DNA from: Mumia flava
GTDB taxonomy: Bacteria > Actinomycetota > Actinomycetes > Propionibacteriales > Nocardioidaceae
Length of the DNA stretch: 64,000 nucleotides
Direction of reading: 5' to 3'
Assembly (NCBI RefSeq): GCF_002797495.1
Contig: NZ_PGEZ01000001.1
Location: 496,001 to 560,000 of the forward strand
Part shown: positions 3,820 through 8,487 of the stretch, one piece after another
Numbering within the stretch: position 1 is the stretch's first letter
How the letters are laid out: each line of letters starts with the position of its first letter
Translations under genes and position numbers: made by a program
Notes under the pieces: model-generated
Database searches by the model: none
What the model was told of the DNA's origin: nothing
The model's input: only the letters and a program-made list of their open reading frames with translations

Positions 3820-3852
3820 CGATGAGAGATCTCTCATCGACGTCTCATCGCC
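3820..3852. promoter_or_regulatory. Composite operator, site 1 (before Asp-rich protein/HK/RR operon)
   Basis: CGATGAGAGATCTCTCATCG at 3820-3839 is a perfect 20-bp palindrome. It runs into a direct repeat in which CTCATCGACG is followed 11 bp later by CTCATCGCCG. Half sites spaced 11 bp are typical of OmpR/PhoB-family binding. The site ends 29 bp before the ATG at 3882. The same arrangement recurs at 7817-7867 and 8447-8487, and the operon it precedes encodes an OmpR-type regulator, so autoregulation is likely. Confidence 0.7.
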
Positions 3853-3881
3853 GTGGCATGGTGGACCGCCAGGCTGGTCGC

Positions 3882-4265
3882 ATGACGTGGACGACCAAGC
3901 TCGCGCTCGGGCTGCTCGCCACGCTGGCCGTGGTGGTCGGCGGTGCGGCCCTCGCCGCGGCGCTCACCTCCCCCGCCCCCGATCCCGGGGTGACGACGCC
4001 GGTGCGGATCGACCCGCCGGCCACCGCGCCCGACAGCACCGCACGACCCGGCTCGACGGCCGCCCCGCAGGACGACGACGCCGATGACGACGACGATGAC
4101 GACGACAGGCTCGAGCACCGGGCGCCGAAGCCTCGTACGCTCCACGGTGAGGGCGGCGTCGGTCAGGCTCCTCGACTGGACTCCGGAGGCGGAGGCGGGG
4201 GCGGTGACGACGACGATGACGACGGCGACGACGGGGACGACGACGATGAAGGGGACGACGACTAG
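3882..4265 (+). CDS. Small Asp/Gly-rich membrane-anchored or exported protein
   Basis: A 127-residue protein of unknown function. It starts MTWTTKLALGLLATLAVVVG, a single hydrophobic segment (about residues 5-28) that could be an anchor or signal peptide. The rest is Pro/Thr-rich, then holds a run of consecutive Asp residues (about 67-75), a short basic stretch, seven Gly, and an Asp-rich C-terminal tail. Clustered acidic residues outside the membrane suggest divalent-cation binding, which is inference. It is the first gene after the operator at 3820-3852, and its 3' end overlaps the sensor kinase gene by 20 bases, so the two are probably co-translated. The Asp runs are encoded by GAC/GAT trinucleotide repeats that could vary in length. 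Confidence 0.7.
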   Translation: MTWTTKLALGLLATLAVVVGGAALAAALTSPAPDPGVTTPVRIDPPATAPDSTARPGSTAAPQDDDADDDDDDDDRLEHRAPKPRTLHGEGGVGQAPRLDSGGGGGGGDDDDDDGDDGDDDDEGDDD

Positions 4266-5730
4266 TCGCGCCGACCTGCGCGCCGACCCTCGCCCACCGC
4301 TGCGCCGCCTGAGCACCTTGACGGTCCGGACCCGGATCGTCGTCGCGGTCGCCGTCCTCACGCTCCTGGCCCTGGTGCTCGCCGGCGCTGCCGCGTACCT
4401 GGTCGAGTTCCGACGGATCGAGGGGGACGTCCGCGACCAGGTGGCACAGGAGATGCGTGAGTTCGAGACGCTCCAGGGTGAGGGCATCGACCCGCAGACC
4501 GGAGAGCCCTTCGCGACCGCCGACCGTCTGCTCGACCTGTTCCTCAGTCGCAACCAGCCCGACGACAACGAACGGCTCCTCGTGGTGAACACGAACGGCT
4601 CCCGGGCGTACGTCGGCCGCTCCGCCGGGGCCCCGTTCGGCGACCCGGCCTTCGAGCAGGCGCTCGGGGACCTCGAGGAGTCCGGCGGGAGCCAGGTGAT
4701 CGAGACCGTCGACGGCGACAGCCAGCTCGTCGCCGTGCGCCCCGTCAGCGACCCGTCGGGGAGCGGCGCCTTCGTGGTCACCTGGAACCTGACCGACGAG
4801 CGCGCGACGCTGCGCAGCCTGATCCTCACCTACGCCGCCGTCGCCGCGATCTCGTGGCTGGCGATCACGCTGGTGGCGTGGCTGACGGCAGGCCGCCTCC
4901 TGCGGCCGGTTCGTGACCTCAGTGACGCCACCCGCGCGATCGCGGACAGCGCCGACCTGTCCCAGCGGATCGGGGTCGAGGGCCGCGACGACCTGTCCGA
5001 GCTGAGCCGCACGTTCAACGCGATGCTGGAGCGGCTCGAGCAGGCGTTCGCGTCCCAGCGCGACCTGCTGGACGACGCGGGTCACGAGCTGCGCACCCCG
5101 TTGACGGTGCTGCGCGGCCACCTCGAGCTGGTCGACGTCGCCGACCCGGCCGAGGTCAGCGCGACCCGGGCGCTCCTGCTCGACGAGATCGACCGCATGA
5201 GCCTGCTGGTGGAGGACCTGCTCGTCCTCGCGAAGGCCCGCAGGCCCGACTTCGTCGTCCCGGCGCCGGTCGTCGTCGCCGACCTGATCGACGACCTCGT
5301 CGAGAAGAGCCGCGCGCTCGGTCCGCGCAGGTGGGTCCGCGCGGACGCCCCGGAACCGTCGGTCGTCGCGTCGATCGACCCGCAGCGGGTCACGCAGGCG
5401 ATCCTCCAGCTCGCCGAGAACGCGGTCCGCCACACCTCCGACGGCGACGAGATCGCCATCGGCGCCGCGATCGACGGGCCGCAGCTGACGCTGTGGGTGC
5501 GCGACTCCGGACGCGGCGTCGCACCGCAGGACCGCGAGCGCCTGTTCGACAGGTTCCAGCGCGGCGCCGCGGAGGCCGGCGACGGCTTCGGTCTCGGCCT
5601 CGCGATCGCGACCGCCATCGCGCGCGCCCACGACGGCTACCTTGCTCTCGACCCCGACGATCCTGACCGGCCCGGAGCGACCTTCCGCCTGGTGCTGCCG
5701 AGCCGCCCGGTGACGAGAGGAGAACCATGA
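4246..5730 (+). CDS. Two-component sensor histidine kinase
   Basis: Membrane histidine kinase, 494 residues from the ATG at 4246. Order: TM1 (about 31-53), extracytoplasmic sensor of about 135 residues, TM2 (about 192-215), HAMP, HisKA with DDAGHELRTPL (phospho-accepting His near 280), and HATPase with ENAVRHT (Asn 392), DSGRGV and GFGLGLAI. The frame is open back to 4084, but that portion is only the out-of-frame reading of the Asp codons of the preceding gene (Thr/Met repeats), so a start at 4246 is preferred. It overlaps the regulator gene by 4 bases. The sensor domain matches nothing I can name. The upstream Asp-rich protein may be its partner. Confidence 0.93.
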   Translation: MKGTTTSRADLRADPRPPLRRLSTLTVRTRIVVAVAVLTLLALVLAGAAAYLVEFRRIEGDVRDQVAQEMREFETLQGEGIDPQTGEPFATADRLLDLFLSRNQPDDNERLLVVNTNGSRAYVGRSAGAPFGDPAFEQALGDLEESGGSQVIETVDGDSQLVAVRPVSDPSGSGAFVVTWNLTDERATLRSLILTYAAVAAISWLAITLVAWLTAGRLLRPVRDLSDATRAIADSADLSQRIGVEGRDDLSELSRTFNAMLERLEQAFASQRDLLDDAGHELRTPLTVLRGHLELVDVADPAEVSATRALLLDEIDRMSLLVEDLLVLAKARRPDFVVPAPVVVADLIDDLVEKSRALGPRRWVRADAPEPSVVASIDPQRVTQAILQLAENAVRHTSDGDEIAIGAAIDGPQLTLWVRDSGRGVAPQDRERLFDRFQRGAAEAGDGFGLGLAIATAIARAHDGYLALDPDDPDRPGATFRLVLPSRPVTRGEP

Positions 5731-6395
5731 GCAGCATCCTGGTGGTCGAGGACGAGGACCGGATCGCCTCGTTCCTCGCGAAGGGCCTGACCGCGCACGG
5801 CTACACCGTGACGCGGGTCGCGGACGGCCACACAGGGATCGACTACGCCCTCACGGGCGACTTCGACCTGGTCGTGCTCGACATCGGCCTGCCGGGGATC
5901 GACGGGTTCGGCGTGCTCGAGCAGGTCGGCGCGCAGCAACCGAGCCTCCCCGTGATCGTGCTGACCGCGCGCGACTCCGTCACCGACACCGTGGCGGCGC
6001 TCGAGGGCGGCGCGGTGGACTACATGAGCAAGCCCTTCCGGTTCGACGAGCTTCTGGCCCGGGTCCGCCTGCGGCTGCGTACGGCGGCGAACGTCGGATC
6101 GTCCGGTGACGACGTGCTCACCGCCGGCCGGCTGCGGCTCGACCTGCGCACGCGCGAGCTGGCCGTCGACGGCCGGCAGATCGAGCTGTCGGCCCGGGAG
6201 TTCCGGTTGGCGGAGGTGTTCCTGCGGCACCCGAAGCAGGTGCTCACCCGGGAGCAGCTGCTCTCCCAGGTCTGGGGGTACGACTTCGACCCGGGCTCGA
6301 ACGTGGTCGACGTCTACGTCGGCTACCTGCGCAAGAAGCTGGGTGCGTCGGCCATCACGACGGTGCGCGGGATGGGCTACCGGTTCGACGGCTGA
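5727..6395 (+). CDS. OmpR/PhoB-family response regulator
   Basis: A 222-residue regulator. The receiver domain has the acidic pair near residues 8-10, the phospho-acceptor Asp52 in VVLDIGLPG, Thr80 and Lys102. The C-terminal winged helix includes ELSAREFRLAEVF, RHPKQVLTREQLL and the closing VRGMGYRF. It is translationally coupled to the kinase by ATGA. This class binds tandem half sites about 11 bp apart, which is what the three operators at 3820-3852, 7817-7867 and 8447-8487 show. It is therefore the likely regulator of its own operon and of the two exported-protein genes downstream. Confidence 0.95.
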   Translation: MSSILVVEDEDRIASFLAKGLTAHGYTVTRVADGHTGIDYALTGDFDLVVLDIGLPGIDGFGVLEQVGAQQPSLPVIVLTARDSVTDTVAALEGGAVDYMSKPFRFDELLARVRLRLRTAANVGSSGDDVLTAGRLRLDLRTRELAVDGRQIELSAREFRLAEVFLRHPKQVLTREQLLSQVWGYDFDPGSNVVDVYVGYLRKKLGASAITTVRGMGYRFDG

Positions 6396-6416: not shown

Positions 6417-7304
6417 TCACCGGGCGCTGATCTTGAAGCCCGCGAGGCGTGCCTTCGGCATCGCTTCCATCAGCGGCTGCACCATCTCCGCGACCTCGGC
6501 CGGCTCCGGCCGGTCCTCGGGCCTCGGCGCCATGCACCGGTAGACGAGCTCGGCGACCGGAACCTCCACGAACTCGGGCATGGGCCGGGGCCTGGACACG
6601 AGCTGGGGGTACTGGACGTCCAGCGGGTCGCCCTCGTCGCCGACGTCGAACGGGCGCTGCGCTGTCGCCGCGTGGTAGAGGGTCGCGCCGAGCCCCCACA
6701 CGTCCGAGGCGTAGCCCGGGGTCCCCCGGTCCGAGGTCGGGTCCGCCTGCTCCGGCGCCAGGTAGTCGTCGGTGCCGATCACGTCGCGCAGGCGGGCCGC
6801 CGCGGCCGCGGAGCGGGCGATGCTGAGGTCGATGACGCGCGCGGGCGCGCCCATGATGACGTTGCTCGGCTTGATGTCGAGGTGGCACACGTCGCGCAGC
6901 CGCATGTAGTGCAGCGCCGAGGCGATCTCGAGCGCGAGCGGGAGGAGCTGCTGGACCGGGAGGGGTCCGTGACGACGGATCAGCGACGACAGGCGGGGTC
7001 CGTCGATGTTCTCGAGGATGACGTACGGTCGGTCGCCGTCGAGGTCGGCCCCGAACCGCCGGACGATCGCGGGGTGCTCGAGAGCGTCGATCATGTCGAT
7101 CTCGCGCTCCAGCCCGCGCAGCGTGTCCGGATCGTCGACCTGGTCCGGGCGTACGACCTTGACCACCACGGGCGCGTAGAGGATCTCGTCGAACGCGAGG
7201 TAGGCCTCGAACGCGTTCCCGCCTCCGAGCAGCTTCATCGCGATCAGTCCGTCGGCGATCTCGTCACCGCGGGCGAAGTCCCAGGCAGCCTGCTCGTCGC
7301 TCAT
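6417..7304 (-). CDS. Soluble Ser/Thr protein kinase (Hanks type)
   Basis: A 295-residue kinase with no membrane segment or extracellular sensor. Kinase features in order: glycine loop LGGGNAFEAY (26-35), VVVKV with Lys49, catalytic loop HLDIKPSN (141-148; HLD replaces HRD but Asp143 is kept), DLS at 159-161 in place of DFG with the metal-binding Asp kept, LAPEQ (182-186) and DVWGLGATLYH. All essential residues seem present, so activity is likely. The start lies 3 bases after the stop of the exported-protein gene at 7308-7757, so the two probably share a transcript and the operator at 7817-7867. Substrates are unknown. It converges on the two-component operon. Confidence 0.9.
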   Translation of the reverse strand: MSDEQAAWDFARGDEIADGLIAMKLLGGGNAFEAYLAFDEILYAPVVVKVVRPDQVDDPDTLRGLEREIDMIDALEHPAIVRRFGADLDGDRPYVILENIDGPRLSSLIRRHGPLPVQQLLPLALEIASALHYMRLRDVCHLDIKPSNVIMGAPARVIDLSIARSAAAAARLRDVIGTDDYLAPEQADPTSDRGTPGYASDVWGLGATLYHAATAQRPFDVGDEGDPLDVQYPQLVSRPRPMPEFVEVPVAELVYRCMAPRPEDRPEPAEVAEMVQPLMEAMPKARLAGFKISAR

Positions 7305-7307
7305 CGC

Positions 7308-7757
7308 TCAGCCCCGGCGGATCTTCCGGGTGTCGTTCTTGCTGCGGTCGTTGGTGTGGTTCGCGCTGCGGTCGAGCTTCTTCTTGCCCTTGCCGTCACG
7401 CGTCCAGTCTCGCGTGAGGTCGCTGCGGCTGCGATCCTTGTCGCGGCTCACCTTGGTGCGGCGGCTGTTCGTCCGGTCCCGGCTCTTGCCGCGGCTGCGG
7501 GTCAGCCGGCTCGCCTTGCTCCGGGTGGCCTTGCTCCGCGTCGCCTTGCTCCGGGTGGCCTGCGTACGCGTGTCGTCGTCGTCATCGTCGTCGTCGGCGA
7601 CCAGCACCACGTCGTCGACCGCGTCGACCCGCTTCGTGACCGCGACCTCGCCGTTGCCGGCGGCGGCCGTGGTCGACTGCGCCGTCAGGGCCAGGCCCCC
7701 GAGACCGACCGTCGCGGCGAGAGCCATGACTCCGGAACGAACGAGCTGCTGCTTCAT
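7308..7757 (-). CDS. Exported low-complexity polyampholyte protein A
   Basis: A 149-residue protein starting MKQQLVRSGVMALAATVGLG, with a signal peptide ending near the Ala-rich segment around 25-32. The mature part has DDVVLVA followed by eight consecutive Asp, then repeated T(R)SKA units and a very basic tail rich in Arg, Ser, Lys, Asp and Thr (for example SRSDLTRDWTRDGKG). It is a clear paralogue of the protein at 7928-8374. No enzymatic motif is visible. AAGGGA precedes the ATG. It is preceded by operator site 2 and followed after 3 bases by the Ser/Thr kinase gene. Its many Ser/Thr could in principle be phosphorylated, but the kinase is cytoplasmic and this protein looks exported. Function unknown. 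Confidence 0.75.
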   Translation of the reverse strand: MKQQLVRSGVMALAATVGLGGLALTAQSTTAAAGNGEVAVTKRVDAVDDVVLVADDDDDDDDTRTQATRSKATRSKATRSKASRLTRSRGKSRDRTNSRRTKVSRDKDRSRSDLTRDWTRDGKGKKKLDRSANHTNDRSKNDTRKIRRG

Positions 7758-7816
7758 GGGTGATCCCTTCTCCGTGGGGCCCGGCCCCTGTCGATGTCTC
7801 CATCGTGGTCCGCGGC

Positions 7817-7867
7817 GGTGAGACGGCCGTGAGCCGTCGATGAGGGTTCTCTCATCGACGGCTCACG
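7817..7867. promoter_or_regulatory. Composite operator, site 2 (before exported protein A / Ser/Thr kinase)
   Basis: A perfect 17-bp inverted repeat (CGTGAGCCGTCGATGAG at 7828-7844 with its complement at 7851-7867) has a 6-base centre. On the minus strand it reads GATGAGAGAACCCTCATC, followed by half sites CTCATC, CTCACG and CTCACC each 11 bp apart, ending CTCACCGCCG. It ends 59 bp before the ATG at 7757. It may also act as a hairpin behind the gene at 7928-8374, but the phased half sites match operators 1 and 3. Confidence 0.7.
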
Positions 7868-7927
7868 CGCCCGAGCCCGCGGACGGTTCGGGCGTACGCA
7901 CGCCCGGCCCGCGGCACCACCCGCTCG

Positions 7928-8374
7928 TCAGCGGCGTCGGCGGGTGTCGTTGCGACTGCGGTCGTTGGTCTTGTTCGCGCTCCAGTCGCGCTTCTTCCCA
8001 CCCTTGCCGTCCCGGGTCCAGTCGCGGGTCAGGTCGGAGCGGCTGCGGTCCCGGTCGCGGCTCACCCGGGTCTTGCGGCTGTTGGTCGCGTCGCGGCTGC
8101 GACCCCGGCTGCGGGTCAGACGGCTCGCCCTGCTCCGGCTCGCCTTCGACCGAGAGTCGCGCGAACGGGTGTTGTCGCGCGCGCCGGCGCGGCCGTCGTC
8201 GTCATCGTCGTCGGCGACGAGGACCACGTCGTCGATCCCGTCGGTCCGCTTCGTGACGCCGGCAGGCGGCTCCTTGCCGGCCGTACTCGTCACCTGGGCA
8301 CCCACGGCGACGGTGCCCAGTGCCACGGCGGCGCCGAGAGCGACGACGCCTGCTCGGATCATGTGCTTGACCAT
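7928..8374 (-). CDS. Exported low-complexity polyampholyte protein B
   Basis: A 148-residue paralogue of the protein at 7308-7757. The start chosen is ATG at 8374 (MVKHMIRAGVVALGAAVALG) because GGGGAG lies 7-8 bases upstream; the frame is open further but reads through the promoter. Signal peptide about 1-30; then GIDDVVLVADDDDDDG, followed by an Arg/Ser/Asp/Lys-rich repetitive region (SRDSRSKASRSRASR) and the tail SRSDLTRDWTRDGKGGKK shared with protein A. The conserved DDVVLVA-Asp run and tail define the pair; the central repeats diverge. Not recognised as a named family. Operator site 3 lies 72 bp upstream. Confidence 0.75.
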   Translation of the reverse strand: MVKHMIRAGVVALGAAVALGTVAVGAQVTSTAGKEPPAGVTKRTDGIDDVVLVADDDDDDGRAGARDNTRSRDSRSKASRSRASRLTRSRGRSRDATNSRKTRVSRDRDRSRSDLTRDWTRDGKGGKKRDWSANKTNDRSRNDTRRRR

Positions 8375-8446
8375 GATGATCTCCCCTCGGTGGCCGCGTT
8401 GCGGCCTCGGTGTCCTGCTCTTGACACCTCGAGGTTCGTCATCGGC

Positions 8447-8487
8447 GGTGAGGGGTGGATGAAGTCGGTGTGAGAGCCCTCTCATCC
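8447..8487. promoter_or_regulatory. Composite operator, site 3 (before exported protein B)
   Basis: On the minus strand: GATGAGAGGGCTCTCACA, then half sites CTCACA, TTCATC and CTCACC at 11-bp steps, ending CTCACCGCCG exactly as in site 2. It shares GATGAGAG-NN-CYCTCAYM with the other two sites. It lies 72 bp before the ATG at 8374. Confidence 0.68.

Follow-up and report, generated by a model that had tools for sequence, protein, structure and literature searches.

Exported Ser/Thr-rich disordered proteins of Mumia flava are probable targets of an adjacent two-component system

Results

A and B belong to an undescribed family of predicted exported proteins

The window, by which we mean the whole 64-kb (64,000-nucleotide) stretch of Mumia flava DNA that was analysed, carries two paralogous genes, A and B, a Ser/Thr kinase gene and an operon for a D-rich protein, a histidine kinase (HK) and a response regulator (RR), together with the following predicted promoter elements.

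3822..3859, plus strand: predicted operator of the D-rich/HK/RR operon, 2 mismatches
3870..3875, plus strand: predicted -10 element of the D-rich/HK/RR operon, CAGGCT, at the spacing fixed in 116 sites
3882..4265, plus strand: D-rich protein, N-terminus with a membrane segment; start codon at +60 of the operator
4246..5730, plus strand: HK with extracytoplasmic sensor, HAMP, HisKA and HATPase (Pfam), predicted start
5727..6395, plus strand: RR of the OmpR/PhoB family (Pfam receiver and Trans_reg_C; co-inheritance)
6417..7304, minus strand: soluble Hanks-type Ser/Thr kinase, 295 aa (Pfam Pkinase 3.4e-32; synteny), start 3 bp past the stop of A
7308..7757, minus strand: A, predicted exported disordered protein, 149 aa, with signal peptide, KRVD...VVLVA, 8 Asp, TRSKA repeats and SRD/TRD tail
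7802..7807, minus strand: predicted -10 element of A, CACGAT, at the spacing fixed in 116 sites
7818..7855, minus strand: predicted operator of A, 0 mismatches
7928..8374, minus strand: B, paralogue of A, 148 aa, 6 Asp (ORF and match to A)
8432..8437, minus strand: predicted -10 element of B, GAACCT, at the spacing fixed in 116 sites
8448..8485, minus strand: predicted operator of B, 0 mismatches

A preliminary description had reported A and B as two proteins with a shared head and tail, and both ORFs were found at the coordinates given there, on the minus strand. The two proteins are 65% identical and have in common a signal-peptide-like N-terminus, DDVVLVA followed by an Asp run, a variable repetitive middle, which in A contains a 15-nt DNA repeat encoding a 5-residue unit, and a conserved tail (SRSDLTRDWTRDGKG) rich in SRD/TRD. 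Neither has a strong match in its own genome besides the other. Profile searches of Pfam and NCBIfam gave no match for B and nothing above the curated cutoffs for A, whose best hit was a 10.3-bit chance match, in agreement with the earlier view that the family is undescribed. In the first search for relatives, 15 of 57 other genomes matched at E < 1e-13, all of the same taxonomic family. Orthologues are present across Nocardioidaceae, and the 10 named relatives returned by a scan of genome contigs were all Mumia, Nocardioides or one Propionibacteriales MAG.

DNA of about 71% GC often contains antisense ORFs and ORFs of low complexity, and A and B might be chance or untranslated ORFs of this kind. 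The mutual match of A and B (E about 1e-48), the invariant tail positions and near-invariant acidic head (KR...V..DDDD) in an alignment of 18 members, and a dN/dS of 0.12-0.18 among close relatives all indicate real proteins, as had been proposed, and the dN/dS of close relatives indicates that the protein is maintained by selection. Between A and B themselves dN/dS was 0.48. With orthologues under purifying selection and with promoter, spacing and synteny conserved (see below), the probability of spurious ORFs is negligible, and this reading was rejected. The proposed export is also well founded in sequence, since a signal-peptide-like N-terminus is present in every family member. AlphaFold2 on B with 18 relatives gave a mean pLDDT of 49 and a single long helix, the signal peptide; it predicts intrinsic disorder, and the model was otherwise uninformative. 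A and B are thus, as judged from their sequences, exported proteins of an undescribed actinobacterial family.

Ser/Thr content rather than charge is the constant property of the tails

Tail composition was computed over 46 members of the A/B family. Ser/Thr accounts for 26 +/- 4% of tail residues, with a minimum of 18%, whereas net charge spans -12 to +18. The tail repeats vary with lineage (TRDx, TRSKA, NTAPTKN, SAPSRQTRA, SAPSAPS and VTND), NTAPTKN and SAPSRQTRA being near-neutral repeats of some lineages. Orthologues in the same cassette retain the acidic head (KRxD...VxV-Dn) and a tail of low complexity that is rich in Ser/Thr, but they do not retain the positive charge. Since Ser/Thr content is steady and charge is variable, what stays constant in the family is that the protein is exported, has an acidic head and carries a disordered tail rich in Ser/Thr. 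The spacing between Ser/Thr residues peaks mostly at 3, 4 or 5 residues, most strongly at 3 in the near-neutral lineages. The motifs [ST][RK] and [ST][RKN][DN] are strongly enriched in the tails (z about 27), and the basophilic motif RxxS/T shows no enrichment in the 46 members (z -0.6).

These data narrow two of the earlier claims. The conserved basic tail is a property of A and B but not of the whole family, and the description as a polyampholyte with adjacent opposite-charge blocks is accurate for the genus of A and B and some relatives, to which such blocks are limited, but not as a general one. It had been proposed that the blocks might give rise to an assembly that responds to metal or associates with itself, or might bind DNA or teichoic acid. 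Such a model is favoured by the RTX proteins among the co-targets (see below) and, within this genus, by the basic tail and the Asp run, but charge is not conserved at the same locus, with a net charge of 0 or below in 17 of the 46 tails, and we regard it as distinctly doubtful.

A conserved operator precedes A, B and the operon of the two-component system

A, B and the D-rich gene are each preceded by an operator with the consensus RTGAG-N5-YYTCAY-N6-YTCAY-N6-YTYAY. It is made of CTCAY repeats at intervals of 11 bp, the first of which forms an inverted repeat with TGAGA. The window holds three sites at <=3 mismatches versus 0.04 expected. The pattern search with <=2 mismatches that defined the regulon of the own genome returned four sites versus none for the reversed pattern, and 61 genomes of the taxonomic family contain 77 sites at <=1 mismatch versus none in the control. 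A -10 element follows the last operator repeat at a constant 10 bp in 116 distinct sites, with A at +49 in 87% of them and T at +53 in 97%. Pho-box-type activated promoters have the same geometry of repeats and -10 element. The D-rich gene has its ATG at +60 of the operator, and many relatives have it at about +60/61, a position which implies that the D-rich mRNA is probably leaderless.

The Streptomyces PhoP box, GtTCAccnnnn, is an 11-bp direct repeat (quoted in PMC6754071), and the operator has the same repeat period and TCA core, as would be expected if these promoters belonged to the PhoP phosphate regulon. However, GTTCAC pairs are not enriched in the window (four weak matches versus 2.9 expected) and none lies at the promoters of A, B or the D-rich gene, the operator precedes the two-component system's own operon, and within genera operators disappear with the cassette HK. 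Control by PhoP is therefore very unlikely and was rejected.

Operators are inherited together with the cassette HK

The cassette HK was scored with a profile of the HK sensor region in the 61 genomes. HK and operator were both present in 30 genomes and both absent from 24; two had the HK alone, as judged at <=1 mismatch of the operator, and five had the operator alone, four of these being draft assemblies and one a decayed cassette. The co-occurrence is highly significant (Fisher p 5e-10), and none of 20,000 trials with HK labels shuffled within genera reached the observed agreement. Based on this co-inheritance and on the operator in front of its own operon, we infer that the neighbouring RR is by far the likeliest operator-binding protein. 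Regulation of A and B by the adjacent two-component system is well supported by these sequence comparisons.

The RR and HK form an OmpR/PhoB-type pair (receiver and Trans_reg_C; HAMP-HisKA-HATPase). Their best NCBIfam scores, both below cutoff, were to the heavy-metal sensor cztS/silS/copS (171.4/292.55 bits) and the heavy-metal regulator cztR/silR/copR (196.1/279.2 bits). The MtrAB and CseB equivalogs were likewise below cutoff (MtrB 148.9/450, MtrA 169.9/300 and CseB 177.1/350 bits). The HK sensor model was confident, and its fold matches, among them WalK and CzcS sensors, were weak. CutR, MprA and PolR were rejected as regulators on account of their published motifs, which differ from the operator. 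Literature searches found nothing for an MprA box, nothing useful on MacR and nothing on point for a two-component system with an Asp-rich partner or a Nocardioides two-component system with a kinase.

The kinase gene tracks the exported gene

The strongest clue to the locus is the conserved context of operator, kinase and two-component system, which the preliminary description did not contain. It mentioned neither the kinase gene, which starts 3 bp past A, nor the D-rich/HK/RR operon, nor the operators that these genes share. In relatives, the exported gene is followed on the same strand by the kinase orthologue, which is convergent with RR and HK, and this arrangement holds inside and outside the truB/ribF neighbourhood. 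Among 47 loci with a kinase orthologue (46 genomes), an operator lies upstream in 46, an exported ORF was automatically detected between operator and kinase in 45, and a convergent HK/RR is present in 41; most exceptions lie at the end of a contig or region or fell below the identity threshold, and one, G003, is a decayed cassette. In one relative (G025) two cassette halves lie about 200 kb apart and each has kept an operator.

In the same-genus genome G003 (L119, 4005-4697) the operator is present, the kinase is broken and the exported gene and HK are absent; the cassette appears to decay as a unit. A GC-rich hairpin lies between exported gene and kinase in L039 (8409-8502) and at the matching place in L040, and could limit kinase expression there; in the window A and its kinase gene are separated by no more than 3 bp. 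The D-rich gene, which the HK start overlaps by 20 bp, precedes the HK in most cassettes and in many relatives outside the order too. Its product (3882-4265) is extremely Asp-rich and predicted to be membrane-anchored, and its position rather than its sequence is conserved across Actinomycetes.

Thirteen kinase orthologues retain the catalytic Lys, HxDxKxxN (HLDxKPxN) and the metal-binding Asp, and their DFG motif reads DLS or DFS. The NCBIfam equivalog for the Stk1/PknB PASTA kinase missed its cutoff (140.2/450 bits), with a match limited to the kinase domain.

Ser/Thr kinases that modify OmpR-family regulators are known, and the kinase and two-component genes are convergent neighbours with a common operator. 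The kinase might therefore be a feedback or tuning element that phosphorylates the RR or HK, with the exported protein unrelated to its activity. Against this, outside the taxonomic family the HK/RR persists without the kinase, and the kinase stays beside the exported gene even when the HK/RR is distant (G025). A tuning role is improbable, and tracking of the exported gene even where the HK/RR lies elsewhere mildly favours a link of the kinase to the exported protein.

Such a link could take the form of polyphosphorylation of the A tail in the cytoplasm before Sec export, which would yield a phosphate-dense, Ca-binding or self-assembling secreted polymer. A precedent is found in Bacillus subtilis, where CotH phosphorylates the Ser/Lys/Arg repeats of CotB and CotG (PMC7821199). 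The association of kinase and exported gene in 47 loci, the absence of the kinase from HK/RR loci of other families whose exported target differs in kind, the conserved Ser/Thr content and the enrichment of [ST][RK] (z 27) are consistent with this model. However, the RxxS/T motif is unenriched (z -0.6), the kinase matches only Pkinase and not CotH in Pfam, phosphorylation would have to come before export, and exported Ser/Thr repeat proteins without an adjoining kinase exist (L179, L191). We consider it improbable.

The operator marks a wider set of mainly exported proteins

The fourth operator of the own genome, on contig 5, stands before the gene of a small exported protein whose family is undescribed:

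L061 1141-1551 (G000:C5), plus strand: small predicted exported protein (DREFRVAGAEVDFSVEKDDGRFE)

At least six other genomes likewise have the operator in front of a member of the DREFRVAGAEVDFSVEKDDGRFE family. Within the taxonomic family, other operator-linked genes encode exported proteins of several kinds: RTX Ca-binding repeats, solenoid-like and Asp-rich lipoprotein-like proteins, a bactofilin, and an undescribed family with the motif DREFRxAGAxVDF, which the own genome has too. Targets further out include DUF4956-like and VTC-like genes (labels by eye), a transporter and exported SPK/SAN/SAP repeats. A few targets are not exported proteins, being glycosyltransferase-, ABC transporter- or glycerate kinase-like (by eye).

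Outside the order, an operator lies directly after the RR in L201 (6288), L202 (6759-8156) and L203 (4352-5758), and the genes behind it are, by eye, DUF4956-like and VTC-type polyphosphate polymerase-like. In one other family (L196 2891, L197 3612 and L198 8488) the operator drives an aminoglycoside-phosphotransferase-type kinase-like gene (by eye), and the adjoining gene, for an exported Ser/Ala/Asn repeat protein, is driven by an operator as well; the kinase-like product would be a second partner with a kinase fold.

Discussion

Our favoured explanation, which we hold to be probable, is that the adjacent two-component system, which probably responds to cations or the envelope, directly controls A and B, and that both are disordered proteins rich in Ser/Thr and exported to the envelope. 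Family, export signal, predicted disorder, operator, -10 element, synteny and co-inheritance are read from the DNA and its translations, and from these we infer the identity of the regulator, activation rather than repression, the stimulus, the wall location and the role of the kinase. A stimulus would act on the membrane HK together with its Asp-rich, membrane-anchored partner, and the triggered HK would lead the RR to bind the tandem 11-bp CTCAY repeats ending 10 bp upstream of the -10 element. The RR would then activate A, B and the kinase following A, the D-rich/HK/RR operon to which it belongs, and a few further genes for exported proteins. In the wall, A and B would act as flexible, charged, modifiable Ser/Thr-rich polymers. 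We tentatively propose that the stimulus is either a cation outside the cytoplasm, which could be Ca2+, Mg2+ or a transition metal, or an altered charge of the envelope, because of the RTX co-targets, the Asp-rich partner, the below-cutoff heavy-metal NCBIfam scores and the weak WalK/CzcS fold matches. A link to metal would also be in keeping with the Asp run and with the RTX calcium-binding proteins that appear to be co-regulated.

A bolder proposal, which we think doubtful, is that the two-component system launches both a secreted Ser/Thr-periodic disordered polymer and a dedicated Hanks-type kinase, which would polyphosphorylate the polymer in the cytoplasm ahead of Sec export and so set the divalent-cation binding of the actinobacterial wall. 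If true, this would be a vegetative-cell counterpart of CotG/CotH or of eukaryotic Fam20C/secreted phosphoprotein pairs.

An uncharacterised, widespread actinobacterial two-component system thus gains a precise predicted operator, promoter map and regulon. Its main targets are fast-evolving exported low-complexity proteins that similarity search alone fails to connect, and three questions are now testable: the signal of the sensor, the action of a Ser/Thr kinase on exported disordered proteins, and the role of these proteins in the wall. Our literature search, largely outside subscription journals, turned up neither a described family nor a publication that covers the exported proteins, their operator or the regulon.

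Several known systems resemble parts of this one. As in CotB/CotG-CotH (PMC7821199), disordered Ser-rich repeats with basic residues are encoded beside a kinase gene, and CotB and CotG are surface-layer proteins. Unlike here, CotH belongs to another kinase family, the spore coat is assembled within the mother cell, and neither a signal peptide route nor a two-component system is involved; phosphorylation in the present case is putative. With PhoB/PhoP-type Pho-box promoters the system shares an OmpR-family regulator and direct repeats of 11 bp, which stop about 10 bp short of the -10 element, but its operator core is CTCAY with a TGAGA inverted arm instead of GTTCACC, its targets are exported proteins and its inheritance follows another HK/RR. 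In HbpS-SenS-SenR of Streptomyces (PMC4991794), an exported accessory protein is likewise encoded with a two-component system; HbpS is folded and haem-binding, whereas here the partner is Asp-rich and tethered and the targets are disordered. CutRS and MprAB are also actinobacterial two-component systems controlling exported or envelope functions, but their published motifs, TAWATAAA and TKTTAAGAAM, differ from the operator (PMC12802291, PMC12113857). The components of the Mumia system are of known kinds, while their combination and the operator-defined regulon appear to be new.
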